From NCBI RefSeq assembly GCF_026319305.1, contig NZ_JAPDMV010000009.1:1-64000 (forward strand): 64,000 nt of DNA, given 5' to 3'. Position numbers and translations under genes: made by a program. This document shows, piece by piece, positions 5,084-59,734 of the stretch (position 1 is the first letter of the stretch; each line of letters starts with the position of its first letter). The notes below the pieces were generated by a model that made no database searches, was not told the origin of the DNA, and saw only the letters and a program-made list of their open reading frames with translations. Source of the stretch: Methylophaga sp. OBS4 (GTDB lineage Bacteria > Pseudomonadota > Gammaproteobacteria > Nitrosococcales > Methylophagaceae).

Positions 5084-5108
5084 TTAATTAAAACCCAAGC
5101 CGGTTAGG

Positions 5109-5318: not shown

Positions 5319-5326
5319 CGTCTCCC

Positions 5327-7225: not shown

Positions 7226-7417
7226 ACAGACTTCGGCGGTCTCGGTTAATTTTTATTTCCGGGAACTTGTCAGGGGAGGATATCACCTGGACACATGATC
7301 GAAAACCTGAATAGGGTGTCGAAGTAATAGATGAATTGGAGAAACTCTGGGTCACACTGCAGACCACTCTATGACCTTGGTTTCCCTTCACTCAGCTCGA
7401 TTCTTCTTTTCTTTTAA

Positions 7418-7897
7418 TTATTCGCCATAAAAATGTACTTTGAACCTATCTCTGAAGTTCTGATGGCAAGCGAGACAATTTCCCTGCACCTTGGCAAAGG
7501 CATCAATGACCTCTAAACCTTCTCTACGTCGTGCTGCCTCAGTCAAGTCTAGCGCCGCTTTATGGACCTGTTCATCATATCCCTTGAACTTAGCAGCGTC
7601 TCTCCCGATGAATTTTAGAATACGCATCTTCTCAACAAAAGGCGGCTGAGGATGATCGGCGATCTGAGTCGCAATTTCCGCAATCCGTGCCCAATCCTCA
7701 TGAGAAATAGCGCCGGCGATCTCCTGCATGTCCTTACCCATCTGTTGCATAATGCCCTGTAGCATCAAGCCCTCGGTGCCAGGCTTATCTTCATACGGCT
7801 CTTGCTCAGCTAAGCTTCCCTGAGCAGCCAATAAGGAAGGAGAAACTGACACAATAGTTAGCAACCCGATCAAAAATGTATTTTTGCAAAAACTCAT
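7418..7897 (-). CDS. Periplasmic c-type cytochrome (cytochrome c'-like)
   Basis: A 159-residue secreted protein with an N-terminal signal peptide (hydrophobic to about LLAAQG) and one C-terminal haem site CLACH about 12 residues from the end, inside NCLACHQNFRDRF. A single haem close to the C-terminus of an all-helical protein is the layout of cytochrome c'. Those proteins bind NO or act in stress protection. It overlaps the end of the RND gene by 4 bp (ATGA), so it is the last gene of the tetR-MFP-RND operon, an unexpected partner for an efflux pump. Confidence 0.75.
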   Translation of the reverse strand: MSFCKNTFLIGLLTIVSVSPSLLAAQGSLAEQEPYEDKPGTEGLMLQGIMQQMGKDMQEIAGAISHEDWARIAEIATQIADHPQPPFVEKMRILKFIGRDAAKFKGYDEQVHKAALDLTEAARRREGLEVIDAFAKVQGNCLACHQNFRDRFKVHFYGE

Positions 7898-10800
7898 TGG
7901 TTATTCCTTCTTTGGATATCGTTAAAGGTTTGCGCTGTTAACTCCTTGGAGGGTTCTAGGGCCTCTGGCACACATGTCCACCCCAAGTCGTCAAATAGCA
8001 CGTAGAGTGCTGGAATCACCAGCAACACCAAGGCGGTTGCAATGAACAGCCCGAACACTACGGCTATCACAAGAGGTTGGATGGCTGCCGCCTGGGTGCT
8101 GGACTCAGCCAGCAGGGGCAGCAAGCCAGCAATAGTGGTAGTGGATGAGATCAAGATCGCCCGCAAGCGATCACGGCTAGCCTGACCGGCAGCGGACGCT
8201 GCATCATGCCCCTTAGCGCGGTAGTTCTTAATAAACTGGATCAACAGGATTGCATTGTTGACTACGATGCCCGACAGTGAGGCCGCCCCGATCAATGAAG
8301 GCATTGAGAGATAGTAGCCCATGATCACATGGCCCCAGATGGCACCGATGAAGGCCAGCGGGATCGACAGCATCACAATCAGTGGCTCAATATAGCTGCG
8401 GAACTGAAATGACAGAATAACGAAAACCCCCACCAAACCGATCAGCAATCCGCGGCCGATGGAAGCCCCTGTCTCGGCGGAGCGGGCCACCTGGCCTTCG
8501 AAATTCGTCTCGACGGCGGGGTGACGGTCCCGAAAGCCATCGAGCCATTCGTCCTGTAAGTTGTCAACGATGGCCTGCCCGGAGGAACGGCGCGCATCCA
8601 CATTTGCCTCCACGGTCACCGTACGTTGCCCGTCGATACGGGTGATACGCGCCCAATCGCGCCGTTCGGTCATGTTGGCCACTACTTCCAACGGTACTCG
8701 GCTGCCGTCGGGTAGAGTGATAGTTTGATCGGCAAGATCGTCAAGGCTACTGCGATCGGCTTTAGCCTGACGCACCAGGATCTCAATATCCTGGTTGCCG
8801 ATGCGCTGAGTGTCGGCGATCTCACCGAGCAAAGCCGACCGTAACTGAGAAGCCACCTCTTCGGCGGTCAAGCCCAGGCCATGCGCACCTTCGGCGAGAG
8901 AGAAGGCCCGCTGGGGCTTGCCAAGGCGCAGGTCATCTATCACGTTGTAGACGGCCATATACCCCCCCAAGTGGGCAACAAGCTCCTGTGCCGCGGCCTT
9001 GAGGGTGTCGAGGTCCTCACCCTGCAAGCGTATCTCTACGGGGACACCGGCCGGCCCGAAGCCCGGCTCCTGGATAATCAGCCGCTCAAGGCCAATGATT
9101 TCGCCGATCTCCTCACGCCAGGCGGCGATCAGCTCATCTACGGTGACGCTGCGCCGCTCGGCGGTAAGCAGATCGACTATCACCGTGGCTACATGAGGTC
9201 CCGCCTCCCGGGCACTGGGATTGTGGTTGAAGCGCACCTGTACGGCCTCCACCAGCACTGCGCCGTCAGGCTGCTCGGGAGCGTAGCGCGCGTCGAGGCG
9301 TGCCATGGCCTCCTCCACCTGCGCGGCCGCTGCTTCGGTACGCTGGAGCGGCGTGCCCTGGGGCATCAGGATGCGCGCCTCCAACACATCACCATCAATA
9401 TCGGGCATCGCCTCACTGCCAATATGGCCACCGGTCATGAAGCCGGCGGAGCCCAGCAGGATTATCAGCAGCCCTCCCAGTACCGCGTGACGGAAGTGAA
9501 TGGCCAGGTCGGCCAGGCGCCCCACCCGCTCGCGGAACCCCTCAAAGCCGCGCTCGAAGGCGGCCCGCAGGCGGGAATCGTGGCTCTCGCGCAGCCGCGC
9601 CACACTGCTTTTTAGGTGGTGCGGCAGGATCCAAAAGGCCTCAAGCAGGCTGGCCGCCAAGGCGGCAATCAGCACCACCGGCAGCACCTCCAGCACCGCG
9701 CCCAGTTCGCCGGCCAGGAAGGAGAGCGGCACGAATACAACCACCGTGGTCAGAAAAGAAGAAAGCACACCAGGTAGCACTTGGCGGGTGCCGGCCACCA
9801 CCGCCTCTAACGGCGAGGAGATCTGCCGGGCATGGGCAACGATATTGTCGGTGATGACGATGGCGTCGTCCATGACAATGCCGATGGCCATCAACAACGC
9901 TACCAGTGTGATCATGTTGAGCGACAAGCCAGTAAGGCCCATTATGAGGAAGGCGCCCATGAAGGCAGCAGGCAACCCTAGCACTGCCCAAATTGCCAGC
10001 CGTGGACGGAAGAACAGGCTCATTACCAACACCACCAGCGCCAGGCCCATGATCCCGTTGCCAACCAGCATCTGCAGTCGGTCACGCACGATACCGGTCA
10101 TGTCCTGGGTCAGGGTAAGGTCGACCCCACTGTCGAAGCGCAGGCGCTCCGCCTCCAGCAGACCTTCCAAGGAGGTCTTTACCGACAGGGCGTCATCACG
10201 TAGCGACTTGCTTAGCTCCAGCACCAGAGCGGGCTTGCCGTTGAAGCGGATCGCCTCCTCTGGCCGCTCCCCCACCTCGCTCAGGGTGGCGATTTTGCCT
10301 AAGGTCAACTCGCCCCCCTCAGCATCAGAAACCACCACCAGCGAGGCCAGCTCGCGTAGCGAGCGGCGCTGGTCGGTGAATCGCAGCAGGATGTCCCGGT
10401 CAGGAGTCTCCAAAGTGCCCAATGGCAGGTCGAGGCTTTGGTGTGTCACCCTGCCGGCCAAGTCCCGAGCCGAAAGCCCATACTGTCCCAGCACTTCACG
10501 AGGGACCGCCACCTGCCACTGCCGCTGGGACATGCCGTGGATGTCCACCTTGGCCACCCCCGGCAGTGCCATCATGCGCTCCTCCAGCCGCAGGGCGTAG
10601 TCTTCCAACTGCCTCCGGGGCATGTCCCCGGTCACCGCCACCGCGGCTACCAGGTCGCTACGGTGCAGTTCGCGCACCACCGGCGCCTCGGCGCGGACCG
10701 GCAAGTCGGTGATGGCGCGCACCTCGGTCTGCAGCGCGTTTAGGAAACGGATGCCGTCGCCGCCGGGGATCATGGTGGCCGTGGCGCTAGCCAGGTTGTC

Positions 10801-11049
10801 TTGGGCGACGCAGGTGAACTCGTCGAGGTACTCGACACCCTTGACCGCATCATGGAGGCGCCGACAGACAGCATCCTCCACATCGGAGGCACTGGCACCG
10901 CGATAAACCACTTCCACGGAGACCTCCAGCGGACGATAGTCGGGGAAAGTCTCGCGCTTAAGTTGGGGTGCGGCGAACAGGCCGGCAGCAATCAGCAGCA
11001 CCAGTAGCAGGTTGGCTGCTGTAGGGTGGCAGGCAAACCAGCGGATCAT
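7894..11049 (-). CDS. RND efflux transporter permease
   Basis: Inner-membrane proton-driven efflux permease of the RND superfamily, 1051 residues, the normal size. It has an N-terminal helix, two large periplasmic loops and two sets of membrane helices. The helix-4 motif GIVMDDAIVITDN holds the paired Asp of the proton relay (as D407/D408 in AcrB). With its adaptor it would move a substrate out of the periplasm or inner membrane; the substrate is not evident. No outer-membrane channel gene is in the operon. The gene is visibly GC-richer than its neighbours (one sampled line at 9001 is about 67% GC), which suggests acquisition. It overlaps both adjacent genes by 4 bp. Confidence 0.92.
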   Translation of the reverse strand: MIRWFACHPTAANLLLVLLIAAGLFAAPQLKRETFPDYRPLEVSVEVVYRGASASDVEDAVCRRLHDAVKGVEYLDEFTCVAQDNLASATATMIPGGDGIRFLNALQTEVRAITDLPVRAEAPVVRELHRSDLVAAVAVTGDMPRRQLEDYALRLEERMMALPGVAKVDIHGMSQRQWQVAVPREVLGQYGLSARDLAGRVTHQSLDLPLGTLETPDRDILLRFTDQRRSLRELASLVVVSDAEGGELTLGKIATLSEVGERPEEAIRFNGKPALVLELSKSLRDDALSVKTSLEGLLEAERLRFDSGVDLTLTQDMTGIVRDRLQMLVGNGIMGLALVVLVMSLFFRPRLAIWAVLGLPAAFMGAFLIMGLTGLSLNMITLVALLMAIGIVMDDAIVITDNIVAHARQISSPLEAVVAGTRQVLPGVLSSFLTTVVVFVPLSFLAGELGAVLEVLPVVLIAALAASLLEAFWILPHHLKSSVARLRESHDSRLRAAFERGFEGFRERVGRLADLAIHFRHAVLGGLLIILLGSAGFMTGGHIGSEAMPDIDGDVLEARILMPQGTPLQRTEAAAAQVEEAMARLDARYAPEQPDGAVLVEAVQVRFNHNPSAREAGPHVATVIVDLLTAERRSVTVDELIAAWREEIGEIIGLERLIIQEPGFGPAGVPVEIRLQGEDLDTLKAAAQELVAHLGGYMAVYNVIDDLRLGKPQRAFSLAEGAHGLGLTAEEVASQLRSALLGEIADTQRIGNQDIEILVRQAKADRSSLDDLADQTITLPDGSRVPLEVVANMTERRDWARITRIDGQRTVTVEANVDARRSSGQAIVDNLQDEWLDGFRDRHPAVETNFEGQVARSAETGASIGRGLLIGLVGVFVILSFQFRSYIEPLIVMLSIPLAFIGAIWGHVIMGYYLSMPSLIGAASLSGIVVNNAILLIQFIKNYRAKGHDAASAAGQASRDRLRAILISSTTTIAGLLPLLAESSTQAAAIQPLVIAVVFGLFIATALVLLVIPALYVLFDDLGWTCVPEALEPSKELTAQTFNDIQRRNNQ

Positions 11050-12413
11050 GGCCGCTCTCCTGACGCCGCCGCAGCAATCCGTCGCTCCAGTACCTCATCA
11101 TGGTGGACAGCGAGCGTCATACCCTGAATCGCCGACGGAAGGTCGTTGACCACCACCCGTTCGCCTGGGGCAAGGCCAACCGCAATCACCGCCAAGTCCC
11201 CTTGCTCAAAGGCCACCTCCACTTCGCGGTGAACCAAGCGGTCCTCGTCATCGACCAGGAAAAGTTTACCCTGGTGAACGGCGGATGCCGGCACTGCCAG
11301 CAGCGGCTCAGGACTCTCCGTTGACAGGCGCACTTGGATGTACATATCGCGCTGCAACGGAGGTCTATTGGGCGGCAGGGCATTGCGATAGGGATCATCG
11401 ACCCGCACAACCACTCGCACCGTACGGGTGGCGGGATCCAGGCCGCTGGCCACCCGCACCATACGACCCGTCCACCCCACCCCCGGGGCACCCACCAGCT
11501 CCAGCTCAGCAGTAATGGCGGAGAAGTCGATCCGATCGCTCAGATCCATGGCGCCCTCGGATAGCCCATCCACCACAACGCTGCCCAGCAGGCGCCGTAA
11601 CATCGAAAAGGGAATACGTCCCTCTACCTCAGCAGCTGCTAGGCTATCGGCCTGAAACAGGTGCTGTCCCGATCCCACGAACTGGTAGAGTTCCACCCCC
11701 ACCTCACCCAAGCGCAGATCATATGGCGCCACGAAACGTGTATCCTCAAGATCACGCCGCGCTTGAGCAAGGTCGGTGTTAGTACGCTCGCGCTGGGCCG
11801 TCAACACCGCCCGCCGAGAGGGTAGCAGCGCCAGGGTGTTCTCCAGGGAGGCTACTGCCTGCCGCTGGGCCAGGGTGGTACGACGCTGCTCATCGAGCTG
11901 GGCGCGAGTCACCGCTCCGCCGCTGGCCAAGCGCTCAATGCGTGCAAGTTCCTGCTCGGCCAGCGCCAGGCGCTCGCGTTCCAGCACTAGTAGACCGCGG
12001 GTATTGGTTTCTTCGGCCTCCAACTGGGACAGTTCGGCAGCCAGGCTGGCCAGCCTGGCTTGGGTCTCGGCGATAACCAGCTCGTAACGGCTCGGGTCCA
12101 GCACAAGAAGCAAGGTTCCCTCGGGCAGAAGAGCGCCACTGGCCAAGTCCTGGTGCCGCGCTATTACCCGCCCCGACACATTGGCCACTGCTTGCCAAGT
12201 CTCGGCGGGTCGCGCTATACCGTGGCCGCGTGCCTCCAATCGGAATGCCAGAGGGCGGGCTTCAATTACGGTGACGCTGGTGAGTGTAGCTGTCGCATCT
12301 TGCCGCTCGGGGGGCTGGCGGTTGGTCACGAAGAACACCAGCAGGACTACGCCAATGATGAAGCCAGCCACCACCATGAGCACTCTGCCTATGTGTCGGA
12401 AAGAGAGATTCAT
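11046..12413 (-). CDS. RND periplasmic adaptor (membrane fusion protein)
   Basis: HlyD/AcrA-type adaptor of 455 residues. One N-terminal membrane helix (about residues 8-30) anchors it. Two lipoyl half-motifs (about 70-110 and 225-260) flank a long coiled-coil hairpin rich in Ala, Leu, Glu and Arg (about 115-220), followed by beta-barrel and membrane-proximal domains. It would bridge the RND pump to an outer-membrane channel. It is translationally coupled (4-bp overlaps) to tetR upstream and to the permease downstream, and shares their high GC content. Confidence 0.9.
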   Translation of the reverse strand: MNLSFRHIGRVLMVVAGFIIGVVLLVFFVTNRQPPERQDATATLTSVTVIEARPLAFRLEARGHGIARPAETWQAVANVSGRVIARHQDLASGALLPEGTLLLVLDPSRYELVIAETQARLASLAAELSQLEAEETNTRGLLVLERERLALAEQELARIERLASGGAVTRAQLDEQRRTTLAQRQAVASLENTLALLPSRRAVLTAQRERTNTDLAQARRDLEDTRFVAPYDLRLGEVGVELYQFVGSGQHLFQADSLAAAEVEGRIPFSMLRRLLGSVVVDGLSEGAMDLSDRIDFSAITAELELVGAPGVGWTGRMVRVASGLDPATRTVRVVVRVDDPYRNALPPNRPPLQRDMYIQVRLSTESPEPLLAVPASAVHQGKLFLVDDEDRLVHREVEVAFEQGDLAVIAVGLAPGERVVVNDLPSAIQGMTLAVHHDEVLERRIAAAASGERP

Positions 12414-13027
12414 CTGGATACTCCAGCGTCTGCACAGATGCCATTCAGGTAAATTTCAAAAACTGCCGGTGCCTTCTGCGCTATCTGAGACATATCACCA
12501 ACCATTAGCGATTGCATGACCAGTCCCTGCACAGTACCGACGAATTGGATGGCAGCGACGTCTATATCCAGTCCCGGCCTCAACTCACCAGCTTGGCTCG
12601 CTTCAACAAGCCTAGTCTCGACGCGTTCACGGTAGGCAAACAGCAGGGAGCGGATTACCCGACGGGCCGGAGTCTGGCGATCATGCTGCAACTGTCCAAG
12701 CATCAATCGTGGTACACCAGGATATTGAATGATGAAGGCAATGTGGGCGTTAAACATCGCCTCAAGCGCATCCAGTGGGCCTGCAGCACTATTGGCAGCC
12801 TCATCAAGCCTGCTAATCACGCGTCCGGCCACCCAGTTGGCGACAGACTCCCAGATTGCCTCCTTGCTTGGGAAATGCCGAAACAGAGCGCCTTGAGTGA
12901 CCTGCATGCGTTTGGCGATTTCTCCAGTAGTGATAGTGGCCGGATCCTCTTTGGCACAGATATCTATTACGGTTTCAACGGTGCGCTCACGGCGCTTCTC
13001 GGAGGAGAGATAGTGCTTTACTGACAT
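12410..13027 (-). CDS. TetR-family repressor of the efflux operon
   Basis: A 205-residue TetR-type regulator. The N-terminal helix-turn-helix (about residues 18-60, ITTGEIAKRMQVTQGALFRHF) is canonical, and the remaining helical domain would bind a ligand. I chose the ATG at 13027 over a TTG 15 bp upstream. It heads the operon, overlapping the adaptor gene by 4 bp, and a strong palindrome lies 15 bp before its start, so autorepression and ligand-induced release of the whole operon are expected. Confidence 0.9.
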   Translation of the reverse strand: MSVKHYLSSEKRRERTVETVIDICAKEDPATITTGEIAKRMQVTQGALFRHFPSKEAIWESVANWVAGRVISRLDEAANSAAGPLDALEAMFNAHIAFIIQYPGVPRLMLGQLQHDRQTPARRVIRSLLFAYRERVETRLVEASQAGELRPGLDIDVAAIQFVGTVQGLVMQSLMVGDMSQIAQKAPAVFEIYLNGICADAGVSR

Positions 13028-47530: not shown

Positions 47531-49264
47531 ATGCTGGAGAAAATCAGACAATATTTTATTTTCGGTGACTCCGCGGCAAAACTCTACGGTCTGGCTATTC
47601 TCACCGGACTGCTGGCGAGCCTGGTTATCATCGCTTTTCGCCTGTTTATCGACTACAGCCAGATAGCCTTATTTCCCACAGCCAAAGTTGAAGATTTCGC
47701 CCATCTGCCCTGGCAATGGGTTCTCGGCCTGCCCATCGCCGGCGGCCTCATCATCGGTTTGATACTGCACAAACTCACACCCGAGCAACGTAACACCGGT
47801 GTTGTGCATGTCATTGAACGTCTCTCTTCCTATGAAGGCAGACTGCCCTGGCAAAATGCCCTGATACAATTTTTCGGCGCAAGCATAGCGCTTATCAGCG
47901 GCCATTCCGTCGGCCGCGAAGGCCCCAGTGTTCACCTCGGCGCCGCCGGCGGCAGTCTGCTCGCCACCGGCCTTGAGCTGCCCAATAACAGTGTCAGAAT
48001 TCTGGTCGCCTCCGGCTCTGCGGCGGCGATCGCCGCTTCCTTTAACACTCCGATTGCCGGTGTGATTTTCGCCATGGAAGTCATCATGATGGAATATCAT
48101 ATCGCCAGCTTTATTCCCATCATCCTCGCCTCCGTCACCGGCGCCGTGATAAGCCGCGTCACCTTTGGCGAAACCACCTTGTTTGCCAACCTATCCGCTG
48201 ATATGCAGTCATTATGGGAACTGCCTTATATCGTATTGATGGGTATTATGATCGGCGGGCTGGCGACGTTGTATCTTCGCAGCCTGCGATTTTTTTCCGG
48301 TTTTCTCACCCAACATCCGTTCTGGCTGCGCACCACCTATGCCGGCATCCTGGTTGGGCTCGCCGGTTTGCTGATGCCCGAAGTCATGGGCATGAGTTAT
48401 AACGCCATCAGCGGCATCTCAATGAACGAAATTGCGCTGGGCGCCTTAATCATGCTGATGCTGCTGAAACTATTACTTTCCACCGCCTGTGTCGGCCTCG
48501 GCATCCCCGGCGGATTAATTGGCCCGAGCCTGGTGGTCGGAGCCTGTGCCGGTGCCGCATTGGGCATTATCGGCCAGTCCTTATTTCCGGAACTGTCTTC
48601 ATCCACCACCTTTTATGCCGTAATTGGCATGTGCGCCATGATGGCCGCCACCCTCAAGGCGCCACTCGCCGCTGTAATGGCTTTAATCGAGCTGACCGCC
48701 AACCCCAATCTCATTCTGCCGGGCATGCTCGCGATCGTATTCTCCAGCCTGATTATTCATGACTATTTCAAACACGACGCTTTATTTATGACATTGCTGC
48801 GGACGCGTGGCCTAGATTTTCGTCACGATCCGATAACACAAACCTTACGACGCATCAGCGTCGCCAATGCCATGCAACGCAATTTTATCATCATGTCCCG
48901 CCACGTCAGCACCCAAGCCGCTGTGCAGGCCTTAAACTCCAACCCTGACTGGGTGTTGATTAAAGAAAACCGTGAACCGGTATCACTGATGCCCGCCGCC
49001 GATCTGGCCCGCGCCGTTAGTCTGGAAGAAAAAGAAGAAATGGATCTGATGCAGATCCCGGCCACCCGCCGCAATGTGCACAAGCTCTCTTTACACAGCA
49101 GCCTGCATGAAGCCGTGCAAGCCCTCAACAATCACCATGTTGAAGCGCTGTATGTCACGCGCATAACCGCACCGATGATCGAACGGACTTACGGCGTGCT
49201 GACCCGTGAAACTATCGAATCGCACTACCAACTGCCTGCTTCCGTCACCGCCAAACATCAATAA
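47531..49264 (+). CDS. CLC-family chloride channel/antiporter with CBS domains
   Basis: Chloride transporter of 577 residues. The membrane part (about 1-430) has about 18 CLC helices. SGHSVGREGPSVHLG carries the gating glutamate (E130, as E148 of E. coli ClcA), which suggests proton-coupled exchange, and GLGIPGGLIGPSLVVG is the third selectivity element. Two CBS domains (about 450-570) would regulate it. It follows hemN by 46 bp. Confidence 0.9.
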   Translation: MLEKIRQYFIFGDSAAKLYGLAILTGLLASLVIIAFRLFIDYSQIALFPTAKVEDFAHLPWQWVLGLPIAGGLIIGLILHKLTPEQRNTGVVHVIERLSSYEGRLPWQNALIQFFGASIALISGHSVGREGPSVHLGAAGGSLLATGLELPNNSVRILVASGSAAAIAASFNTPIAGVIFAMEVIMMEYHIASFIPIILASVTGAVISRVTFGETTLFANLSADMQSLWELPYIVLMGIMIGGLATLYLRSLRFFSGFLTQHPFWLRTTYAGILVGLAGLLMPEVMGMSYNAISGISMNEIALGALIMLMLLKLLLSTACVGLGIPGGLIGPSLVVGACAGAALGIIGQSLFPELSSSTTFYAVIGMCAMMAATLKAPLAAVMALIELTANPNLILPGMLAIVFSSLIIHDYFKHDALFMTLLRTRGLDFRHDPITQTLRRISVANAMQRNFIIMSRHVSTQAAVQALNSNPDWVLIKENREPVSLMPAADLARAVSLEEKEEMDLMQIPATRRNVHKLSLHSSLHEAVQALNNHHVEALYVTRITAPMIERTYGVLTRETIESHYQLPASVTAKHQ

Positions 49265-49277
49265 GCCATTATTTGGG

Positions 49278-49306
49278 TCAACAATCCGGCAAATCTCGGT
49301 TATAAT
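49278..49306 (+). promoter_or_regulatory. tRNA-Leu promoter
   Basis: A perfect TATAAT at 49301-49306 stands 12 bp before the tRNA. TCAACA at 49278-49283 serves as a -35 with a 17-bp spacer. Confidence 0.7.
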
Positions 49307-49318
49307 GCCCCATCTTAT

Positions 49319-49405
49319 GCCCAGGTGGTGAAATTGGTAGACACAAGGGACTTAAAATCCCTCGGCTTTGCGGCCGTGCCGGTTCGATTCCGGCCCTGGG
49401 CACCA
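49319..49405 (+). tRNA. tRNA-Leu (anticodon TAA)
   Basis: An 87-nt tRNA with long variable arm (CGGCTTTGCGGCCG) and encoded CCA. The acceptor stem GCCCAGG/CCTGGGC and anticodon loop CTTAAAA are intact. It marks the boundary between the core genes and the AT-rich accessory block to its right. Confidence 0.97.
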
Positions 49406-49457: not shown

Positions 49458-51215
49458 TCAGTGTGCAATAAAGTCTAAACCCACTCTCGTGAAGTTACTG
49501 CCTAACTTCTGTAATAAATTTAGAGCGTATTCATAACGCAGTTGTGCAACAATCTTACACTGGCAGTTATTCAATGACATTTGCTGGCCGCTTGATGCTA
49601 ATTTGTTAATAGTGATTGTATTGTCACCCTGTATTCTCCCGCTATCATCCGCTATGAACAGACTCCAATGAGGGGAAGCAGCGTTATCCGTGGAGTCATA
49701 GAAACTATACTGCTCAATTTCACCAATTTGATTAACCCCTTTGATAAACAAGTAATTATTTGAGTTTATCTTCGTATCTAATGGGCCAGTTTTGCAGTGA
49801 AGCTTTACAGCCATGAAAGGTTTGCGGCCGGTTCCCACATCCTGAAATACTCCAATATTCTTTTGGTTGGGCACCAAATCACAGATGGGTGATAAACATA
49901 CCCATTTCTCACCATTTAACTCAAAAATATGACCCGTTTCAAGATGCCAACCTGTTATGTTGGGTTTACATGAAATATATGAATTATATTCTCTGATCGC
50001 ACGTTCATTTTCATTGCCATCAGAGAGGTCAACGTTGTAATGGTGTTTAGTTAACTCACCAATGCCTATACCGTTAAGATTTACACCAACAACTTTAGTG
50101 AGGTATTCACGAACTGTGGGTTTAATGTGGCTGCTCAGCAACTCAAGATGGCGATCTAATTGTGCATCTATCAGTGCATGCTTAAATTCTTCATTATCAA
50201 CAGAGATGAGGTTCTGATAAAACTTGGCTTGAGCATGACGACTACTCAAAGCAATATCTTCAGCAAGGACTCCTTCCTCCTCTAATGTCGCTCTAAGTTT
50301 TGATGATAGCAATCTACTTGGACTTGGCTTCCAATCGCTTAATGCCTTTAAAAGCTTATTAATCAAATCAACATCTTCTGCTTTCTGTACAAAAGTAATA
50401 AATCCTTGATTTGTCCTAACCCAATGTGGTCCACCTTGAGCAACATCAGACCACCTAACATCATGTCTTGACTCAGTATTGAAAACCGTTGAGTTGGTTC
50501 TTTCAAACTCACTGAGAGCCCAATAGAAGACATTAGACGGGGTTTGTTTTTCCCAGCCAAAGTCTCTGGTAATTTGATGAAATTCGGTAAAGGGGGGAGC
50601 GCCTTCTCTAATACTTTTCAAGGCAGTTCTGGGCTCTCTTCGAAACGTAATATACTGCTGAAAGTTTAGTGCTGCTCTAACTTTATTGAATACGTTTGGG
50701 TCAACATCTTCAGCATCTTGGATCACATCTCTTCCTGAAGTAATTTGATCATTTTTGCCCAAATCTGAGACACACGGACTTAAAAAAGACATCAGTATTC
50801 TTTCAAAAGGCTCGATTGGTTGAGATGATGTGTGGAGCACAATTAAATTAAAATGTTTATTGGAGAAAACTTTTTTTACTATCTCTACAGCCTTCTCACC
50901 TCTATCGTTTAATTCATAATCAAGAATTAGCAAATCTGACTGATGCAAGTGTTGTGACAGAGTTACTCTATCATTACCGTCACCTTCACCATTGTGAATA
51001 TCAACAATCAGGGCTGGATCACGATTTCTGAAGTTTTTAATAACGTTAAGAACTTCTTTTGGATTCGTCTGTGGTACCAATTGTTTATTATCAGCCTGTG
51101 CTACGAGCACTTGTTCGATCGTCGGATACTTATCATCAACTATCAATACTGAACGAATAGGCTCAATAAAAGCTTCCCATATATGGGACTCATATGCCTT
51201 TGCAAGCTCAATCAT
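49458..51215 (-). CDS. Receiver-domain protein of a methylation-linked conflict system
   Basis: A 585-residue protein. The N-terminal 150 residues look like a response-regulator receiver: acidic pair in RSVLIVDDKYP (D27, D28), phosphoacceptor Asp in DLLILDYELN (D99) and Thr/Ser in LIVLHTSSQ (about 129-131). Between the first and second strands lies a longer-than-usual insert. The remaining 430 residues match nothing I recognise: no helix-turn-helix, nuclease or ATPase motif is evident. It starts one base after the GHKL gene stop (ATG at 51215, preferred to a TTG 24 bp upstream), so the two are coupled. It is likely the phosphorylation target and effector of that protein. It is AT-rich like its neighbours. 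Confidence 0.72.
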   Translation of the reverse strand: MIELAKAYESHIWEAFIEPIRSVLIVDDKYPTIEQVLVAQADNKQLVPQTNPKEVLNVIKNFRNRDPALIVDIHNGEGDGNDRVTLSQHLHQSDLLILDYELNDRGEKAVEIVKKVFSNKHFNLIVLHTSSQPIEPFERILMSFLSPCVSDLGKNDQITSGRDVIQDAEDVDPNVFNKVRAALNFQQYITFRREPRTALKSIREGAPPFTEFHQITRDFGWEKQTPSNVFYWALSEFERTNSTVFNTESRHDVRWSDVAQGGPHWVRTNQGFITFVQKAEDVDLINKLLKALSDWKPSPSRLLSSKLRATLEEEGVLAEDIALSSRHAQAKFYQNLISVDNEEFKHALIDAQLDRHLELLSSHIKPTVREYLTKVVGVNLNGIGIGELTKHHYNVDLSDGNENERAIREYNSYISCKPNITGWHLETGHIFELNGEKWVCLSPICDLVPNQKNIGVFQDVGTGRKPFMAVKLHCKTGPLDTKINSNNYLFIKGVNQIGEIEQYSFYDSTDNAASPHWSLFIADDSGRIQGDNTITINKLASSGQQMSLNNCQCKIVAQLRYEYALNLLQKLGSNFTRVGLDFIAH

Positions 51216-51216
51216 G

Positions 51217-54186
51217 CTATTCCATTCCTTTGAATTCAATTACAAAATTTGCTCCATGTAATGGAGTTATATTCTTATCAATTTCATAACTAATTTTATG
51301 ACCACCAGCGGCAAGATTAGCCTTAGCTAAATACAGTCCAACACCTCTACCGCCACTCATTTTTCTGGTAAAAAATAATGAAAATAATTTCTGGACATCC
51401 AGTTCATCTACCCCTGGGCCATTATCTGAAACAAATACTTTGTCTCCGACTAAATCCAGCCTGATTTCCTTGTTATCAATATCAGAAACTTGTAACCAGT
51501 AACGACTGTTATTCACTAAGTTGATGAAGACGGGGAAAAGCCTGGCGGGCTGTTCAAAAACTCGAATCCGTTTGAATGTGTCTGTTGCATTAAACAAAAT
51601 ATTGCTGCTTTTTAGCTGGTTTGAGTAGAAAGCATCCAGATACTCATAAATTTCCTGACCGGTAATCCATTTTTGAACTCGTTGGCCTGATAATTTAAGT
51701 GGTGATAAAAACCTCAGTTGTCCTGTCAGTCCGTGATACCCCATCTGGAGTTGAGCTATTGCCTCTGACTGCTGCACCTCTTCAGGTAATTGATTGATTC
51801 CTTGCCCGATCATGTCATCATAGGATTGCAATTCATGTCCCAAAATTTCGACAGCAATCCCCAACTGAGCCAAAGAATTTAATCTTTCCACTTCTGAACG
51901 AAGTTCGTCATTTTCTTCAGTACCTGCAATAGCGAGCATCTCAAGATCAATACTTTCCGTCAGAGTCTCCAGAGCCCTGATATATGATTCAAAAACCTCT
52001 GTATTTTCATCATCGATTTGAGTCCTTACTTCTTCCATCAATGACAAACTCTCTCTCAGATCGAGACTCTTCATTTCAACCCGCTTCAAAAGTGGAAGTG
52101 TTGTTTCGTGGAAGATCTTATTTCTTTCGTCGATTAACGCGCTGATTCTCTGATTCTCTGCCTCATGTAGTGATGAAATTTCAGACTTCCACTTTCTAAT
52201 CCTACTGTGAATAAATCCGGCACTTTTTTGTCTCTGTTTTTCAAAGACCTCTAAAGGCTTAGGCGGTTTTATTCTCTGAATAGCCTCATGAATTTTTTGC
52301 TCCCATCTCTCAAGCATCGAATAACACATGCTCATCAGATATCGATATTCTCGATAAGCATCTTCTAAACTACCAAGTTCTTGAGGGGCTCCTGAGAGCC
52401 TATACTCTGCATATTCTGTACGAAATGACTCCAGCTCTTCTTGAGCTAGAAACAGCTCAGACTCTGATTCGATCTTGAGACTTTCAACGTAATCCGTTAG
52501 CTGTTCCGTTAGCTCTGGTAACTGTTTATTAAACCGCTTAAGTTTCCCTCTGAATTGAGATCGATGTTTTTTTCGGAGTTTATTTCTTTCTTGCCGGAGC
52601 TTTTCCTCTCTATTTGCAGCCTGAAGCTCAGGAAGTATTGTTTGTCTCAGCTCAGAATCAGTTCCAAAATATTTTCTGCCCGTGCGCATCAAAATATTTT
52701 CTATCAGCACTTTAAGAGTCTTTGCTGCAACGTTATCTATAAAACCTTCTCGGCCCGCCTTATCTTTAAGATTTGGGTTTTTTTCTCGACTCAATGCCAA
52801 ACGGCCGAACATCCTTCTGGCATTCCAAAACTCCCTTCCCGCATGTCTACTTCTTCGAGATTCAATTTCAAAAAAGTCATTATCAACTCGACCATAGGGC
52901 AAAACTCGTAAACTATTTCGGAACACCATGAAACCAGCATATTTTGATGCCATCGTTTCAAAATATTTAAACTCCTCTGCTGAGTGAGATGTATTTTGAG
53001 CTTGTTGCTCAAAAGTTGAAAAGTAGAGATCAACCGGACCAACTTTCCAGTCACGTCTTTGATGAATCTTGACGTCTTTTGGAGGATCGATCGTCAATGT
53101 TTTACCTTCTTCAACCCATTCCCCAAAAACTTTTATTTGGCCATGAAAAACACCCTTACCATCAATATAGCCATCAACCACATGTTCTAATTCTGTAGTT
53201 TTACTACGATTGAACTCTTTTGCCGGTCCCAATATTAATTTTGACTTGTCACTCTTATGAACAGAAACACTATAAGTAAACTCTGGATCGACCCCATTTA
53301 TATCAGGAATATTAGGGTCCCAAAATGGATCCACGAAACTGGATAAAGTCTCAAAAAAACGTTCTTGTGACCTTTGTTCCATTGGACCTGTAATTCCCTC
53401 TGACAAATAATTTCTCAGGTCGTAATTGATACCGGAAAGTAAAAGGGCTGTACCAGATGGACTTTCCTCATTCCAAACCTGCCACTTTTGAATATGCCTT
53501 TCTACAAAACGCGTATTGATTATTGTTTGTGCAATCTGTTCTGAAGGAACAACGTAGTTGTTGTCATCATTTTCTTCTTTGCTAATCCTGTCATATGTTT
53601 GCCAGGCTGCTTCTACACGCTGCTGATGCTCTTGGTCTTCAACATCGCCCCACACATTTGTGGTCAGTTTCTCGAATAACTCTGGCAATAAGTTGAACAG
53701 CTCCGACTTGTTATCAAACTGTGTTACGGGAATTTTTATATCTGACAAAATCAGAAACGGGTTTTCAAAAATGCGCCAATCTATTAAGGCAGCAACGAAA
53801 GAATTATTTTTTCGTTTTGAAACAAGCAGAAGAAGCGGCCCAAGGTTTGCTGATGAAAGACGACCTATACCCTTTTGCCCTTGCTTGGGTCTTGGCTTAA
53901 GACCATTTCGGTCTTCTTGCGGAGTCTTATTATTATTAAATTTGGACTCTGTTCCGACTACAAGCCATCGATCTACAAATTCTTGATAGGACATTCCATG
54001 ACCGTTATCAAGGATGTTTGCTACTGGCTCTTCTCCATCGTAGATATTAAGCTCAACAGAACTCGCGTAAGCATCATAAGCATTTTTCCACAGCTCAGAG
54101 ATAGCTGTAGGACAATCGGCGATTTGTTCTCTGCCGAGGTGATCGACTGTTCTTGCTTGCGTTCTGAAAGCAATCGATTCAATCAT
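51217..54186 (-). CDS. Double-GHKL ATPase / sensor-kinase-like protein
   Basis: A 989-residue protein with an ATPase domain at each end. The N-terminal GHKL domain is of the MutL/Hsp90/MORC kind: N-box ELWKNAYDA (31-39), G1 LDNGHGM (59-65), G2 GQKGIGRLS (103-111). A long charged, partly coiled-coil middle (about 530-770) follows. The C-terminus is histidine-kinase-like: a His in EILGHELQSY (about 784), N-box FINLVNNSRYW, G1 VSDNGPG and G2 GGRGVGLYLAK (about 945-955). The ATG at 54186 (CAGGAG upstream) overlaps the methyltransferase stop (ATGA). It could sense DNA or methylation status and signal to the receiver protein encoded next; that is inference. No membrane segment is seen. Confidence 0.8.
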   Translation of the reverse strand: MIESIAFRTQARTVDHLGREQIADCPTAISELWKNAYDAYASSVELNIYDGEEPVANILDNGHGMSYQEFVDRWLVVGTESKFNNNKTPQEDRNGLKPRPKQGQKGIGRLSSANLGPLLLLVSKRKNNSFVAALIDWRIFENPFLILSDIKIPVTQFDNKSELFNLLPELFEKLTTNVWGDVEDQEHQQRVEAAWQTYDRISKEENDDNNYVVPSEQIAQTIINTRFVERHIQKWQVWNEESPSGTALLLSGINYDLRNYLSEGITGPMEQRSQERFFETLSSFVDPFWDPNIPDINGVDPEFTYSVSVHKSDKSKLILGPAKEFNRSKTTELEHVVDGYIDGKGVFHGQIKVFGEWVEEGKTLTIDPPKDVKIHQRRDWKVGPVDLYFSTFEQQAQNTSHSAEEFKYFETMASKYAGFMVFRNSLRVLPYGRVDNDFFEIESRRSRHAGREFWNARRMFGRLALSREKNPNLKDKAGREGFIDNVAAKTLKVLIENILMRTGRKYFGTDSELRQTILPELQAANREEKLRQERNKLRKKHRSQFRGKLKRFNKQLPELTEQLTDYVESLKIESESELFLAQEELESFRTEYAEYRLSGAPQELGSLEDAYREYRYLMSMCYSMLERWEQKIHEAIQRIKPPKPLEVFEKQRQKSAGFIHSRIRKWKSEISSLHEAENQRISALIDERNKIFHETTLPLLKRVEMKSLDLRESLSLMEEVRTQIDDENTEVFESYIRALETLTESIDLEMLAIAGTEENDELRSEVERLNSLAQLGIAVEILGHELQSYDDMIGQGINQLPEEVQQSEAIAQLQMGYHGLTGQLRFLSPLKLSGQRVQKWITGQEIYEYLDAFYSNQLKSSNILFNATDTFKRIRVFEQPARLFPVFINLVNNSRYWLQVSDIDNKEIRLDLVGDKVFVSDNGPGVDELDVQKLFSLFFTRKMSGGRGVGLYLAKANLAAGGHKISYEIDKNITPLHGANFVIEFKGME

Positions 54187-55301
54187 GCGCACTCCTGTGC
54201 AGTTTCATGACTAACTGATGTTTCATCAGAACTACCCAGAAGCTGACTTATGTGATGAATGATGACTTTCCCCAGCTCAACAGGTACGGCATTACCAATT
54301 TGCTTACCGGCAGCAATCAAACCACCATAAAATACATAGCTATCCGGAAATGTCTGTATTCTTGCAGCCTGACGCAACGTAATTCCATGATGCTCTGTCG
54401 GGTGAACAAATCTGCCCTTTGAAGGGTTTATGCAAGCTGTGGTCATTGTAGGTGCAGATTGAAATGGATCTATTCTTCCGTACACATCTTTGTGTCCATC
54501 ATGCTTTTCATGACAAGGCAAAACACGCCCGGAGTCTTCCCTACTCCCACCGTTGATTGGGGTTTTTTTGAACACTTCTATGAGTTCTTTACCATGATTC
54601 ATGTGTTGATTATTTAAATCATCAACATTTACTGGTGTTGAAAACACACTTTGACATGCAACCCATGGCAGTAAAGAAGAGTCTTTTGGAATTTTATTTG
54701 GATGCGAATGTGTCGGTTTAGGAGGCCAGACAAAATCGCTGGTATTAATCTCTTCAGCAACGCCCAAAATAAAAACTCTGCGCCGTCTTTGAGGTACACC
54801 GTAATCTCTGGCATCGAGGACTATTGGCGCAAAAAGCTTATACCCAGACTTTTCTCCTTCTTCGTAAAATTTTGCCAAATAATCTTCGTGCCTTTTCCAT
54901 AAAATTCCAGGCACATTTTCCATTAAGAAAAGACGCGGTTTTAATTTTTTTACAAAACTAAAATAAGTGTGGATGAGTTTATTTCTCGGATCCCCAACAC
55001 CTGCATCACGAATTCGATGGGTTGAGAACCCTTGGCATGGTGGTCCGCCCAGTAACAGATCACATCTGCTATTCGTAAAAAAGGTTTCTTGTAGTTCCGC
55101 AGGATTCAGAGTTTCAACATCTAACTCGAAAAGCTCTGTCTGTTTGCTGATGGCGTTACAAATATTTTTTCTGTATGTTTCAGTTGCATGACGATCATTT
55201 TCTACAGCAAACTCCAAGCTATAACCCGCTTGAATTGCTGCAAGCGAAAACCCGCCAGCGCCAGCGAAAAGGTCTACAGCTTTCAGTCCCTTATATTGCA
55301 A
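54183..55301 (-). CDS. DNA (cytosine-5)-methyltransferase
   Basis: 5-methylcytosine methyltransferase of 372 residues with the family motifs in order: I DLFAGAGGFS (10-19), IV GGPPCQGFS with catalytic Cys89, VI ENV (128-130), VIII QRRRRVF and X QIGNAVPVELG. The target-recognition region (about 215-290) does not reveal the site. The start is TTG at 55301 with GAGAGG 7 nt upstream. It is first in an operon with the GHKL and receiver genes and divergent from a vsr gene, as expected for a methylase whose deamination products need Vsr repair. No cognate restriction enzyme is visible. Confidence 0.93.
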   Translation of the reverse strand: MQYKGLKAVDLFAGAGGFSLAAIQAGYSLEFAVENDRHATETYRKNICNAISKQTELFELDVETLNPAELQETFFTNSRCDLLLGGPPCQGFSTHRIRDAGVGDPRNKLIHTYFSFVKKLKPRLFLMENVPGILWKRHEDYLAKFYEEGEKSGYKLFAPIVLDARDYGVPQRRRRVFILGVAEEINTSDFVWPPKPTHSHPNKIPKDSSLLPWVACQSVFSTPVNVDDLNNQHMNHGKELIEVFKKTPINGGSREDSGRVLPCHEKHDGHKDVYGRIDPFQSAPTMTTACINPSKGRFVHPTEHHGITLRQAARIQTFPDSYVFYGGLIAAGKQIGNAVPVELGKVIIHHISQLLGSSDETSVSHETAQECA

Positions 55302-55449: not shown

Positions 55450-55911
55450 ATGGATACTCATAGACCCGAGGTTCGCAAAAAAAACATGCGAGCTGTAAAA
55501 AGCAAAAATACAAAACCGGAAATCATCATCAGGAAAGCCCTCCATGGCAGAGGTTTCCGATACAAACTTCATGACAAATCATTGCCCGGGAAACCTGATC
55601 TGGTTTTCCCTAAATACAGAGCAGTCATAGAAATATATGGTTGTTTCTGGCATGGCCATAACTGCAAAAAATTCTCGTGGCCGAATACAAATGAGGAATT
55701 CTGGAAAGAGAAAATTTCAAATAATAGAAGCAGAGACAGTAAAAATATCCATAGATTGATGCAATCCGGTTGGCGGGTGTTAATTATCTGGGAATGTTCG
55801 ATTAACGACAGGAACAGACTCTTAAAACCAGATTTGATAAATCTAATTTCAGATTGGCTTGTTCACGGTTACAGCTCAAGTGAAATCAATGGGACAACTA
55901 AATTAGGATAG
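55450..55911 (+). CDS. vsr: Vsr-type very-short-patch repair endonuclease
   Basis: Mismatch endonuclease that nicks 5' of T in T:G mismatches arising from deaminated 5-methylcytosine, 153 residues. The N-terminal MDTHRPEVRKKNMRAVKSKN, catalytic Asp in LPGKPDLVF (D50) and GCFWHGHNC (64-72) metal/His motif are all typical, as is the late IIWECSI cysteine. It is divergent from the cytosine methyltransferase. Its intact active site argues for real function. In many systems Vsr works with MutL and MutS; here a MutL-like GHKL ATPase is encoded in the same locus. Confidence 0.94.
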   Translation: MDTHRPEVRKKNMRAVKSKNTKPEIIIRKALHGRGFRYKLHDKSLPGKPDLVFPKYRAVIEIYGCFWHGHNCKKFSWPNTNEEFWKEKISNNRSRDSKNIHRLMQSGWRVLIIWECSINDRNRLLKPDLINLISDWLVHGYSSSEINGTTKLG

Positions 55912-56003: not shown

Positions 56004-56372
56004 TCAAGCGCGAGCATGCGGTGGTTTGATTAACGACTCCGCCGGGATACCCAGCTCCTGATTCAGCTTCCAGATCATTTTCAGCGTCAGTGAGCGCTTG
56101 TGATTCAGAATTTCATAAACACGATTGCTCTTACCGATCATGGGCTCCAAGTCTTTAACGCTCAGCCCTTTCTGCTCCATTTCAAACTTGATGGCTTCAA
56201 CCGGATCAGGGAAATCCAACGGGTAATGTTTGGCTTCATAGGCTTCCACCAGGGTCACCAGTACATCCAGCTCTTCGCCTTCAGGTGTATCCGGCGTGGC
56301 CGTCATCAGCTTTTCAATTTCTTTTAATGCCGCACGGTAGTCAGCATCAGTTCTAATAGGTTTGATATTCAT
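56004..56372 (-). CDS. HigA-type antitoxin, no toxin partner visible
   Basis: A 122-residue protein of the HigA-like antitoxin/transcription-regulator family. The N-terminal region MNIKPIRTDADYRAALKEIE is typical, and a Cro/C1-type helix-turn-helix occupies the C-terminal half (about 65-115, KGLSVKDLEPMIGKSNRVYEIL). The ATG at 56372 was chosen by this N-terminus. Such antitoxins normally follow a higB toxin gene, but the 95 bp upstream contain none and hipA comes next, so it looks orphaned. Confidence 0.8.
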   Translation of the reverse strand: MNIKPIRTDADYRAALKEIEKLMTATPDTPEGEELDVLVTLVEAYEAKHYPLDFPDPVEAIKFEMEQKGLSVKDLEPMIGKSNRVYEILNHKRSLTLKMIWKLNQELGIPAESLIKPPHARA

Positions 56373-56467
56373 AATTTCCACGCGCCAGCGTATGGCACGT
56401 CTCCCGCCCCTGTTCCGCGAGGCGCCGGTTTCATTCAAATAGTCTGCACATCAATCTGTGCCACCAG

Positions 56468-57742
56468 TCAGACATCAATCTTGAAATCCTCATGTAATGA
56501 TGTCCAATGAGCGCTTAACTTAGCTTTATGGTCCTCATCCATTGGTAATCCACTCAATGCTTGAGGCCATGATGCTCTCGCGGTTTCCATAACATCATCC
56601 AGATGGGGTTTTACTGCTCGCCAGGGAATACCTGCTTTTGTCGCCCAGTATTCAAAATGAGCCATCGATACTTTGTACCACTCTTTTGTTTTCCCAAGGT
56701 TCAAAGCAAATTGAACCTCGTCCTCGATATAAACGCTCGTGGTGACGATATCGTATGCCGGTGAAAGTCTAGGCGTTACTTTGTCCGGGTACAGAAAGCT
56801 CCAATTCTTGATGTGAGCATCGCCATTAGCCAGCAATATGTTTACCAATAAACGACGGGCAAATTGTTGAGTATCTGCTAGACCATCACCTGAAAAACCA
56901 TCAATGATCTTCCCTAACTGCTCGTAATTAGCCGATCTATATTTTTCGTGTGGATACTTAACCAGGATCTGAGCGAAGTCTTCCATATGAACACGCTCAT
57001 TACCCGCTCTATCGAAGCGTTTAATCGCAAAAGCGTATCTTTCATCCGGCAGATTTATTTGGGGTAAGTTATCAAGTTGATTGAGTTCAACGAGCTTAAT
57101 TTCTGGAATTTCAATACCTACCATTTCAGCCAGTGACATGGCAGTAAATTCATTCAGTGGCACATTTTTGTGCTGTGTTGAGGGTGTTTTGATGATCCAG
57201 TCCCCCAGCTCTCCCCCTTTTGTGAGGTTATAGCGTCCATCTTTCTCCTTCATCGAGAACTTTATTTGCACTCCAGCCAAGGAGAATTTGTTCTCACCAT
57301 CTCCAATATTAAACTCTACCGCTTTCGCTTTGCCATGTGTGCTAAGGACGCTTTCTGGCACTTCTTCTGGCCGCATTGGCCTGGCCACAATGGCTCCGGG
57401 TAAATCCTGGCCTAGATATGAAAAGAGATGAAACTCATCATCTATATGGATTTTTTTATGCTGCGTAATTAACTCCCTCAACGCCCCCTCTGGTAATAAG
57501 TTTGATAAGGTTGGATGAAGTCTCTGATTTCTGACCCAAGGCTCTGAAAGTCCTTTATCAACTCCGGGAAAAGAGGGGTGGGTAATCAAACTGAATGTTG
57601 GACGGTCGGGATTAGCGCGAAACGACCCTGCAAAAGTTAAAGCATTTCGACCATTATTGAAGCCAGCTAAGTAACCAACAAGCTCGCCATGTAAGGATAA
57701 CTCCAGAACCTGAACTTCGTTCATCTGCGCCGATGAAGTCAT
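56468..57742 (-). CDS. hipA: HipA-type serine/threonine kinase toxin
   Basis: Toxin kinase of 424 residues. E. coli HipA phosphorylates glutamyl-tRNA synthetase and causes persistence. Catalytic Asp308 is in LANGDAHIKN and Mg-binding Asp331 in LSPAYDI, matching D309 and D332 of HipA. The regulatory Ser is about S154 in KFSLAGVQIK. All key residues are intact, so it is probably active. It is downstream of hipB with a 4-bp overlap, the usual antitoxin-first order. Confidence 0.93.
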   Translation of the reverse strand: MTSSAQMNEVQVLELSLHGELVGYLAGFNNGRNALTFAGSFRANPDRPTFSLITHPSFPGVDKGLSEPWVRNQRLHPTLSNLLPEGALRELITQHKKIHIDDEFHLFSYLGQDLPGAIVARPMRPEEVPESVLSTHGKAKAVEFNIGDGENKFSLAGVQIKFSMKEKDGRYNLTKGGELGDWIIKTPSTQHKNVPLNEFTAMSLAEMVGIEIPEIKLVELNQLDNLPQINLPDERYAFAIKRFDRAGNERVHMEDFAQILVKYPHEKYRSANYEQLGKIIDGFSGDGLADTQQFARRLLVNILLANGDAHIKNWSFLYPDKVTPRLSPAYDIVTTSVYIEDEVQFALNLGKTKEWYKVSMAHFEYWATKAGIPWRAVKPHLDDVMETARASWPQALSGLPMDEDHKAKLSAHWTSLHEDFKIDV

Positions 57743-58062
57743 TCCTTATCCTCATCGAGCAAGCCTTTCCAGGGATCATCAGCAAATGTTTCATTTACGG
57801 TACTGCCAATAAATTGCTTCCTTTTTAAGCCGCTATCATTTTCTAGCACCTCCATAACGGCACTCAGTTTTTCTTGTGGGATCAACATCAGCTCGCTCTT
57901 AAGGCCCTTTGCAACCAGCTCTAAGGTATCTAAGCGAGGGTTCCCCTTTGTTTCCAGTCGGTTATATTGCTGACGAGACATTCCAACGCGAAGCATCATA
58001 TCTTTTTGCTTCAGCCCTAGGGTCATTCGTCTTTTTTTAAGTTGTGTAAGTAGCGAGCTCAT
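57739..58062 (-). CDS. hipB: HipB-type antitoxin and repressor
   Basis: A 107-residue XRE-family DNA-binding antitoxin. The helix-turn-helix (about residues 8-62: RMTLGLKQKDMMLRVGMSRQ, then QYNRLETKGNPRLDTLELV) is clear, and the C-terminal tail would contact HipA. It represses its own operon through the row of operators directly upstream and neutralises the HipA kinase. Confidence 0.92.
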   Translation of the reverse strand: MSSLLTQLKKRRMTLGLKQKDMMLRVGMSRQQYNRLETKGNPRLDTLELVAKGLKSELMLIPQEKLSAVMEVLENDSGLKRKQFIGSTVNETFADDPWKGLLDEDKE

Positions 58063-58480: not shown

Positions 58481-58675
58481 ATCTCAGCCAACCATTCCTG
58501 TACTACCGCCATACTTGTCGTGGCCACCAACCCATAAAATATTTTTATATCTAGCATAAAAAATTATGTCTTTTCCTTATTGCCCATTTGTTCTAGATTG
58601 AAAAACCCCAGATTTTTCTGGTCATCAGTGACACGCTTTTCCGTCGATGGAATTGCAATTCGGAGGATGAATATT

Positions 58676-59734
58676 TTGGCTTTAATATCATTACGACAAC
58701 TGCTTGATTATGCAGCAGAGCAGGAGTTTGCAGTCCCTGCCTTCAACGTCAATAACCTGGAACAGGTCCAGGCTATCATGCAGGCAGCTGACGCTTGTGA
58801 CAGCCCGGTTATCATGCAGGGTTCTGCTGGCGCTAGAAATTATGCCGGTGAACCCTTCCTTCGCCACCTGATTCTGGCAGCAATTGAAAGTTACCCCCAC
58901 ATACCCGTAGTTATGCATCAGGATCATGGCTCTTCACCCGCTGTCTGTGCCAGAGCGATTCAGTCAGGTTTCAGCTCTGTGATGATGGATGGTTCATTGC
59001 TGGAAGATATGAAAACGCCGGCTGATTATGACTACAACGTGAAAGTCACACGTACCGTGGTCGATATGGCCCATGCTTGTGGTGTTTCTGTAGAAGGTGA
59101 GCTGGGCTGTCTCGGTTCTTTAGAAACGGGCATGATGGGTGAAGAAGATGGTCATGGCAGTGATGAACAACTTGATCACAGCCAGTTATTGACTGATCCC
59201 GATGAGGCCGTTGATTTTGTCAAACAAACTAATATCGACGCATTAGCGGTTGCGATTGGCACCAGTCACGGCGCGTACAAATTTACCAAGCCACCGACAG
59301 GTGATGTGCTGGCAATAAGCCATCTCAAAACCCTTCAGCAGAAACTGCCGAATACCCATTTTGTGATGCATGGTTCCAGCTCGGTGCCGCAAGACTGGTT
59401 GGAAGTCATCAACGCACATGGTGGCGATATCGGCGAAACTTACGGCGTACCTATCGAAGAGATCGTCGAAGGTATTAAATACGGCGTTCGCAAAGTCAAC
59501 ATCGACACCGACTTGCGGATGGCGGCCACCGGCGCAACACGGCAGTTTTTAACTGACAAGGCCAATGCCGCCAACTTTGATCCACGCAAATTCTACAAAG
59601 CGGCCACCGCCGCGATGCAGGACATTTGCCAGCAGCGTTATGAAGCGTTTGGCAGTGCCGGCCATGCCAGCAAAATCAAAGCTTTTTCATTAGAAAAGAT
59701 GATGGGCAAATACGCCCGTGGAGATTATGCCTAG
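58676..59734 (+). CDS. fba: Class II fructose-bisphosphate aldolase
   Basis: Zn-dependent aldolase joining triose phosphates to fructose- (or sedoheptulose-) bisphosphate for the Calvin cycle and gluconeogenesis, 352 residues. Metal and catalytic motifs [21 protein letters not shown] and the later [11 protein letters not shown] are present. I chose the TTG at 58676 because it opens the family N-terminus [14 protein letters not shown] and has GGAGG 9 nt upstream; an ATG at 58667 touches that Shine-Dalgarno. It is the first of fba-fbp-tpiA-prk. Confidence 0.95.

Follow-up and report, generated by a model that had tools for sequence, protein, structure and literature searches.

The gene under study lies on the minus strand of the window, by which we mean the whole 64,000-nucleotide stretch of Methylophaga sp. 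OBS4 DNA that was analyzed. Its reading frame stays open for 989 amino acids, from an ATG at 54186 to a stop at 51217; the plus-strand translation of 51217-54186 is full of stops and holds no open reading frame. Reading of the junctions places the gene in the middle of an operon: the TGA stop of a C5 cytosine DNA methyltransferase gene overlaps the kinase ATG (ATGA), and the gene of a response-regulator-like partner starts 1 bp past the kinase stop. The features of the locus are as follows.

55450-55911, plus strand: Vsr mismatch endonuclease, divergent from the methylase (Vsr, E = 2.1e-32)
54183-55301, minus strand: C5 cytosine DNA methyltransferase, first gene of the operon (DNA_methylase, E = 3.1e-61)
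51217-54186, minus strand: kinase, 989 aa, with a MORC-like GHKL-S5 module, a coiled coil, and a predicted DHp and CA core
53773-54108, minus strand: GHKL-1 (HATPase_c_3), residues 27-138, with putative catalytic Glu E31, N35 and D38 (Pfam; 56/56 covering homologs)
52648-53772, minus strand: S5/transducer-like region, residues 139-513, which completes the MORC/SMCHD1-type module (model residues 16-513 match Morc3 and SMCHD1)
51877-52647, minus strand: long helical or coiled-coil linker, residues 514-770 (predicted helices H511-568 to H747-797)
51694-51867, minus strand: DHp/HEF_HK domain, residues 774-831 (PF19191)
51835-51837, minus strand: candidate phosphoacceptor H784
51232-51549, minus strand: CA kinase domain (HATPase_c), residues 880-985 (Pfam; histidine-kinase folds, Z about 18)
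49458-51215, minus strand: response-regulator-like partner, 585 aa, Response_reg_2 plus output domain (PF19192, 63.5 bits against a cut-off of 27)
50817-51164, minus strand: receiver part 1 (beta1-beta4, alpha1-3), residues 18-133, with D27, D28, D99 and T129 (alignment; CheY-like, Z about 10)
50919-50921, minus strand: candidate phosphoacceptor D99 of the partner
50427-50816, minus strand: alpha4 and helical insert within the receiver, residues 134-263 (secondary structure of the model)
50325-50426, minus strand: receiver part 2 (beta5-alpha5), residues 264-297 (fold alignment to CheY)
50382-50384, minus strand: invariant beta5 Lys K278 of the partner
49461-50324, minus strand: output domain, residues 298-585, helices followed by a beta-rich domain, with C445-D446 and R577-x-G579 (no Pfam family)

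Three domains of the kinase exceed their Pfam curated cut-offs, namely HATPase_c_3 (residues 27-138; E = 2.8e-17, 63.4 bits against 25), HEF_HK (residues 774-831; E = 2.9e-7, 31.3 bits against 24.1), and HATPase_c (residues 880-985; E = 3e-12, 47.4 bits against 26.4), and their order is that of architecture group 1 of PF19191. As both GHKL domains score above the curated cut-offs, a chance match of motifs is excluded and the pair represents real domains. A preliminary description of this DNA had placed two Bergerat sets at about residues 31-111 and 784-955, on either side of a coiled-coil-rich middle, with a His in a GHE context upstream of the second. These coordinates are correct, residues 511-797 are predicted as long helices, and the H-box G783-H784-E785 falls within the DHp-like HEF_HK domain; the architecture that it observed is confirmed.

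A single scan of 84,980 species genomes recovered 58 homologous loci, mostly full length, and the kinase was aligned across 57 sequences, the window included. All signature residues of GHKL-1 (E31-x3-N35-x2-D38, D60-x-G62-x-G64, and K105-G106-x-G108) are present in the 56 sequences that cover them, and the helical linker is the least conserved segment of the chain. The phosphotransfer proposal had been tied in advance to the conservation of H784, and this residue is found in 57/57 sequences, followed by an acid in 56/57 (E785), giving a conserved His-acid pair in the first DHp helix; the loss of conservation that was to have refuted the proposal is thus not seen. GHKL-2 carries N889-x3-N893, D921-x-G923-x-G925, and G946-x-G948-x-G950; both Asn residues are present in 57/57 sequences, G923, G946, G948, and G950 are invariant, and D921 is retained in 51/57, with Asn in the other six.

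The two ATP sites differ at the residue four positions before the Mg-binding Asn, where GHKL-1 has Glu (E31) and GHKL-2 has Asn (N889). A Glu at this position is the water-activating residue of GHKL hydrolases such as MutL, Hsp90, and MORC, and kinases typically lack it; on these residues, GHKL-1 therefore looks like an ATPase site and GHKL-2 like a kinase site, in line with the preliminary description. Four residues after H784 the alignment shows G, S, T, E, A, or D. Histidine kinases with phosphatase activity have T or N here, and because neither is conserved we predict a trigger biased toward kinase activity, with no balance between kinase and phosphatase; phosphatase activity would be weak or lacking altogether.

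AlphaFold2 models were built with 56 sequences from the window and the homologous loci, and the kinase model (mean pLDDT 83.5) agreed with the assignments of the preliminary description at both ends of the chain. In VIA-align comparisons, residues 16-513 matched Morc3 (5ix2; Z 17.7, 328 aligned residues, 4.2 A) and SMCHD1 (6mw7; Z 16.2, 353 aligned, 5.0 A), and the C-terminus matched many histidine kinases, the best with Z 18.3 over 148 aligned residues at 2.2 A. Foldseek matches of the same model include DNA-bound MORC2 and GRP94, and with both tools the C-terminal matches span whole DHp-CA structures. The modeled fold and the motifs, with Asn in place of the catalytic Glu and N and G boxes present, support the histidine-kinase core that had been proposed for the C-terminal part.

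The N-terminal half is likewise supported, by its modeled fold, as a GHKL-S5 ATPase module of the MORC/SMCHD1 type, and it has both the catalytic Glu motifs and the S5-like transducer fold of the MutL/MORC/Hsp90 class. The earlier label "MutL/MORC-like" thus stands as regards the fold and E31, but it does not extend to the signature of MORC proper. That signature has been given as GhXhhpXXRhl in the available text of Iyer et al. 2008 (PMC2292703), whereas residues 418-428 of the window protein read GFMVFRNSLRV, with the Arg one place too late. Because the S5 motif is missed by this one position, "MORC-like" or paraMORC is an apt class name for the module and "MORC" is not. The likeness to eukaryotic MORC2, MORC3, and SMCHD1 lies in the fold of residues 16-513; in contrast to these proteins, the window protein lacks the strict S5 motif and has no CW, hinge, or other chromatin domain.

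The partner model reached a mean pLDDT of 90.9. Counted from the partner ATG (51215), D27, D28, D99, and K278 are invariant in 56 sequences and T129 is present in 54/56, such that the partner holds a full receiver set of DD pocket, candidate phosphoacceptor Asp, beta4 Thr, and beta5 Lys; the numbering of D99, already named as the acceptor to be tried, was right. CheY aligns across residues 17-297 of the model (Z about 10, 118-124 residues aligned). Since beta5 and alpha5 follow beta4 only after about 120 helical residues, the receiver in both model and alignment is split by a helical insert; counted from T to F, its length is 121-155 residues in every homolog. The Pfam Response_reg_2 match (residues 20-172) stops inside this insert and so excludes K278. 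Covariation between kinase and receiver was computed for 55 pairs (effective number 40) and gave no clear signal; DHp-receiver couplings made up 4 of the top 60 against 1.2 expected, and none linked the DHp to alpha1.

The remaining 288 residues of the partner make up the output domain. Ten output domains searched against Pfam gave no family above cut-off, a Foldseek search of PDB and BFVD with the model of the entire partner had no match at E <= 0.001, the VIA list for the whole model was filled by receiver domains, and a profile search of PDB based on the partner alignment likewise found no match. The polar positions that are invariant or nearly so are N411, C440, C445, D446, R560, Y563, and R577. 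Across the 56 homologs no His, Lys, or Glu of the output domain is invariant, and judging from the alignment the domain therefore lacks canonical HNH and PD-(D/E)xK signatures.

The operon association is widely kept. The partner directly follows the kinase gene in at least 55/57 loci, and a C5 methylase gene lies within about 5.3 kb of the kinase in 55/57, the other two being cut by contig ends. The methylase is directly upstream on the same strand in 42 loci, within 4 kb in 11, and at about 5.3 kb in 2; in 11-13 loci it is present at a different position or orientation. Vsr occurs in 21/57 loci, and among 105 immediate neighbors scanned the commonest family was HNH_2, in six. Pfam and PADLOC identified no endonuclease besides Vsr in the operon region of the window; PADLOC 2.0.0 returned only generic methylase and Vsr matches and weak REase_II matches to the N-terminal GHKL domain, with none to the partner. 

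Much of this arrangement is already on record. In the accessible text of Bellieny-Rabelo et al. 2021 (PMC8011034), HATPase_c_3+HEF_HK+HATPase_c proteins are linked to Response_reg_2, C5 methylases, and Vsr, and the soluble "group 1" architecture accounts for 174 of 222 proteins; the architecture, the partner, the R-M linkage, and the two-component reading were thus published from genomics. The window pair resembles theirs in domain order, the adjacent Response_reg_2 gene, and the C5 methylase and Vsr nearby, and differs in its HEF_HK score of 31.3 bits against 80-104 in other members, a modest score that places it in a divergent branch. The receiver boundary published there ends inside the insert, and that text does not describe the beta5 Lys or the output domain as such. 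Set against that text, our refinements are that the receiver is split, that an output domain is shared between branches, and that there is a compact branch, presented below. Among the literature naming HEF_HK or Response_reg_2, only this paper concerns the kinase-partner system, and the open-access literature contained no experimental study, whether biochemistry or phage test, of any family member.

Other known systems share parts of the design. The paraMORC GHKL-S5 ATPases of R-M systems, which adjoin C5 methylase and Vsr genes according to the available text of Iyer et al. (PMC2292703), resemble the window protein in the GHKL-S5 module, the intact motifs, and these neighbors; paraMORC1 is there given a conserved C-terminal extension that is not termed a kinase, whereas the extension of the window protein is a predicted histidine-kinase core. 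VcSduA is a GHKL-gated Shedu nuclease with demonstrated phage defense, in which the GHKL domain is hypothesized to gate the effector (PMC12137116). It shares a GHKL ATPase and a clamp-like middle with the window protein, but its effector is a fused nuclease, whereas the next step in the window system would be phosphotransfer to a separate protein. An unvalidated HATPase+REC gene set predicted as defense by DefensePredictor (PMC13092281) can be likened through the legend of its Fig. 5F, which gives no sequence.

A search with the output domain revealed a compact sister branch, which consists of a C5 methylase, a GHKL-kinase of 659-734 aa whose His sits in HEGR(R/K)PL, and a partner of 331-385 aa with an ordinary receiver that has no insert. 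It is found on plasmids of Enterobacter mori, Campylobacter jejuni, and Hymenobacter, in Fusobacterium vincentii, and in one genome (L115) of the window's own class. L115, Campylobacter, and Hymenobacter have the methylase next to the compact pair; the annotation of the Enterobacter stretch shows no such gene there, and for Fusobacterium the record carries no annotation. Compact and window-family kinases align end to end (hhalign 100%, E 1.9e-45), and the P-x-C-D-(L/I/M) core of the compact partners matches the window-family output domain (95.7%, E 1e-8, 50 columns), although the compact members scanned against Pfam matched neither HEF_HK nor Response_reg_2. The Hymenobacter set adjoins DUF3883, ATP-binding, and Z1-domain genes, the setting of MORC-type R-M systems, and the compact branch may correspond to the paraMORC1 of Iyer et al. 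The compact loci lie at 8103-12659 (L115), 5837-9059 (L118), 6017-10228 (L119), and 2865-6062 (L121).

One explanation for these observations is that the kinase is the sensor of an R-M-linked two-component system that would turn DNA sensing into phosphotransfer and a defense output, a reading to which we assign a probability of roughly 0.55. In such a system, the GHKL-S5 dimer would close with ATP on DNA that lacks, or wrongly bears, C5 methylation, and closure would be relayed through the helical linker to the DHp; the CA domain would then phosphorylate H784, from which the phosphate would pass to the partner's D99. Once phosphorylated, the partner would release or activate its output domain, which would act on foreign DNA or on the infected cell, the methylase would mark self DNA, and Vsr would repair the T:G mismatches left by deamination of 5-methylcytosine. 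The domains, the invariant catalytic residues, the folds, the operon, the methylase linkage, and the recurrence of the same three genes in the compact system speak for a sensor kinase. Against the reading as a whole stand an output domain to which no activity could be assigned and the lack of a restriction endonuclease both in the operon of the window and next to most homologs. DNA binding and methylation sensing by the clamp are suggested by the modeled fold and the gene linkage; signaling through the coiled coil, His-to-Asp transfer, and the antiviral output are steps that we infer. The preliminary proposal that one chain could convert DNA sensing into phosphotransfer is thus partly supported. 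If the chain of events holds, DNA state would be the input of a histidine kinase, MORC/MutL clamps would be joined to two-component signaling and restriction-modification, and the unexplained GHKL proteins of R-M operons would gain a concrete, testable mechanism. A more tentative extension, which we regard as possible though well short of probable, is that the window and compact systems are two arms of an unrecognized defense class in which a clamp ATPase reads C5 methylation and phosphotransfer activates a new PxCD/RxG effector domain; restriction would then run through an intermediate kinase cascade instead of cutting directly.

One may instead postulate that the pair is regulatory, tuning the neighboring methylase or an R-M system elsewhere through a kinase that senses DNA state and a partner that alters transcription or methylase activity, and is no direct antiviral trigger. 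Control of R-M systems is what the accessible text of PMC8011034 suggests, and most loci are missing a recognizable nuclease; the partner, however, has no recognized DNA-binding domain, and its Cys-Asp/RxG output core, invariant in two branches, looks more like an active or ligand site, and we consider a purely regulatory role unlikely. We think it more doubtful still that the C-terminal GHKL domain is only a second ATPase or dimer clamp, with a structural H784, a scaffold partner, and no phosphorelay. The variable phosphatase position, the Asn replacing D921 in a minority of sequences, and the low scores of the C-terminal domain against canonical kinase models would fit such a role, but the invariant His with its acid, the intact N-box and G2 box, the invariant Asp pocket of the receiver in the adjacent gene, and the matches to whole DHp-CA structures argue against it. 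Classical type II-like restriction, with the output domain as a nuclease whose cutting the kinase merely licenses, is improbable given the absence of PD-(D/E)xK and HNH signatures noted above, even though almost every locus has a linked methylase, Vsr accompanies it as it does many C5 R-M systems, and HgiDII-type restriction enzymes share the N-terminal GHKL domain (65.7 bits over residues 12-132, far below the 550-bit cut-off).

Returning to the sensor-kinase reading, decayed relatives bear on how the partner might behave. Of 5,426 complete E. coli genomes, 774 contain a stretch that matches the Serratia kinase gene over roughly its final 60%. At the two loci inspected (L143, 8118-11586; L144, 7124-10592), which lie beside ssrA with an integrase next to the tmRNA, the kinase is a 572-aa remnant without the N-terminal ATPase, the partner is intact, and the methylase is absent from the 16-18 kb viewed. 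This remnant is probably the published "group 2" form. The E. coli loci count against a constitutively toxic partner and fit a system that stays inactive when its sensor is lost, although they represent a single inherited event; given how many genomes carry the decayed relative, a laboratory model is within reach. Separately, the kinase gene of Methylobacter tundripaludum (L060, 8363-9449) is interrupted past residue 118 by foreign ORFs spanning about 1 kb, and that of Morganella (L052, 7989-10423) is split across two frames; the partner genes at both loci look intact.

The methylases of 52 loci have a specificity region between motifs VIII and IX (residues 185-308 of the window enzyme) whose sequence (GGSR..LPCH..H.GH.DVYGR) is kept between distant phyla, a hint that most homologous systems have one methylation site in common. 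The idea that the partner carries swappable target specificity gained no support, as conservation of the methylase recognition region (47%) is close to that of the whole enzyme (49%); divergence-corrected comparison of the methylase with any kinase or partner segment gave partial correlations of -0.12 to 0.21 and no signal.

The window system was probably acquired laterally, as none of 23 sampled same-genus genomes has a full-length homolog. The island is flanked by a chloride-channel gene next to a tRNA-Leu (47531-49405) and a fructose-bisphosphate aldolase gene (58670-59731), which are 9 kb apart in the window and roughly 50-75 kb apart in same-genus genomes, a difference in spacing that places the island at a rearrangement point. 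Beside the R-M genes, at 56004-58062 on the minus strand, a HipB-HipA pair precedes an HTH protein that matches PADLOC PD-Lambda-2_B in its N-terminal part (145.6 bits), and this set is possibly a second defense or toxin-antitoxin operon.
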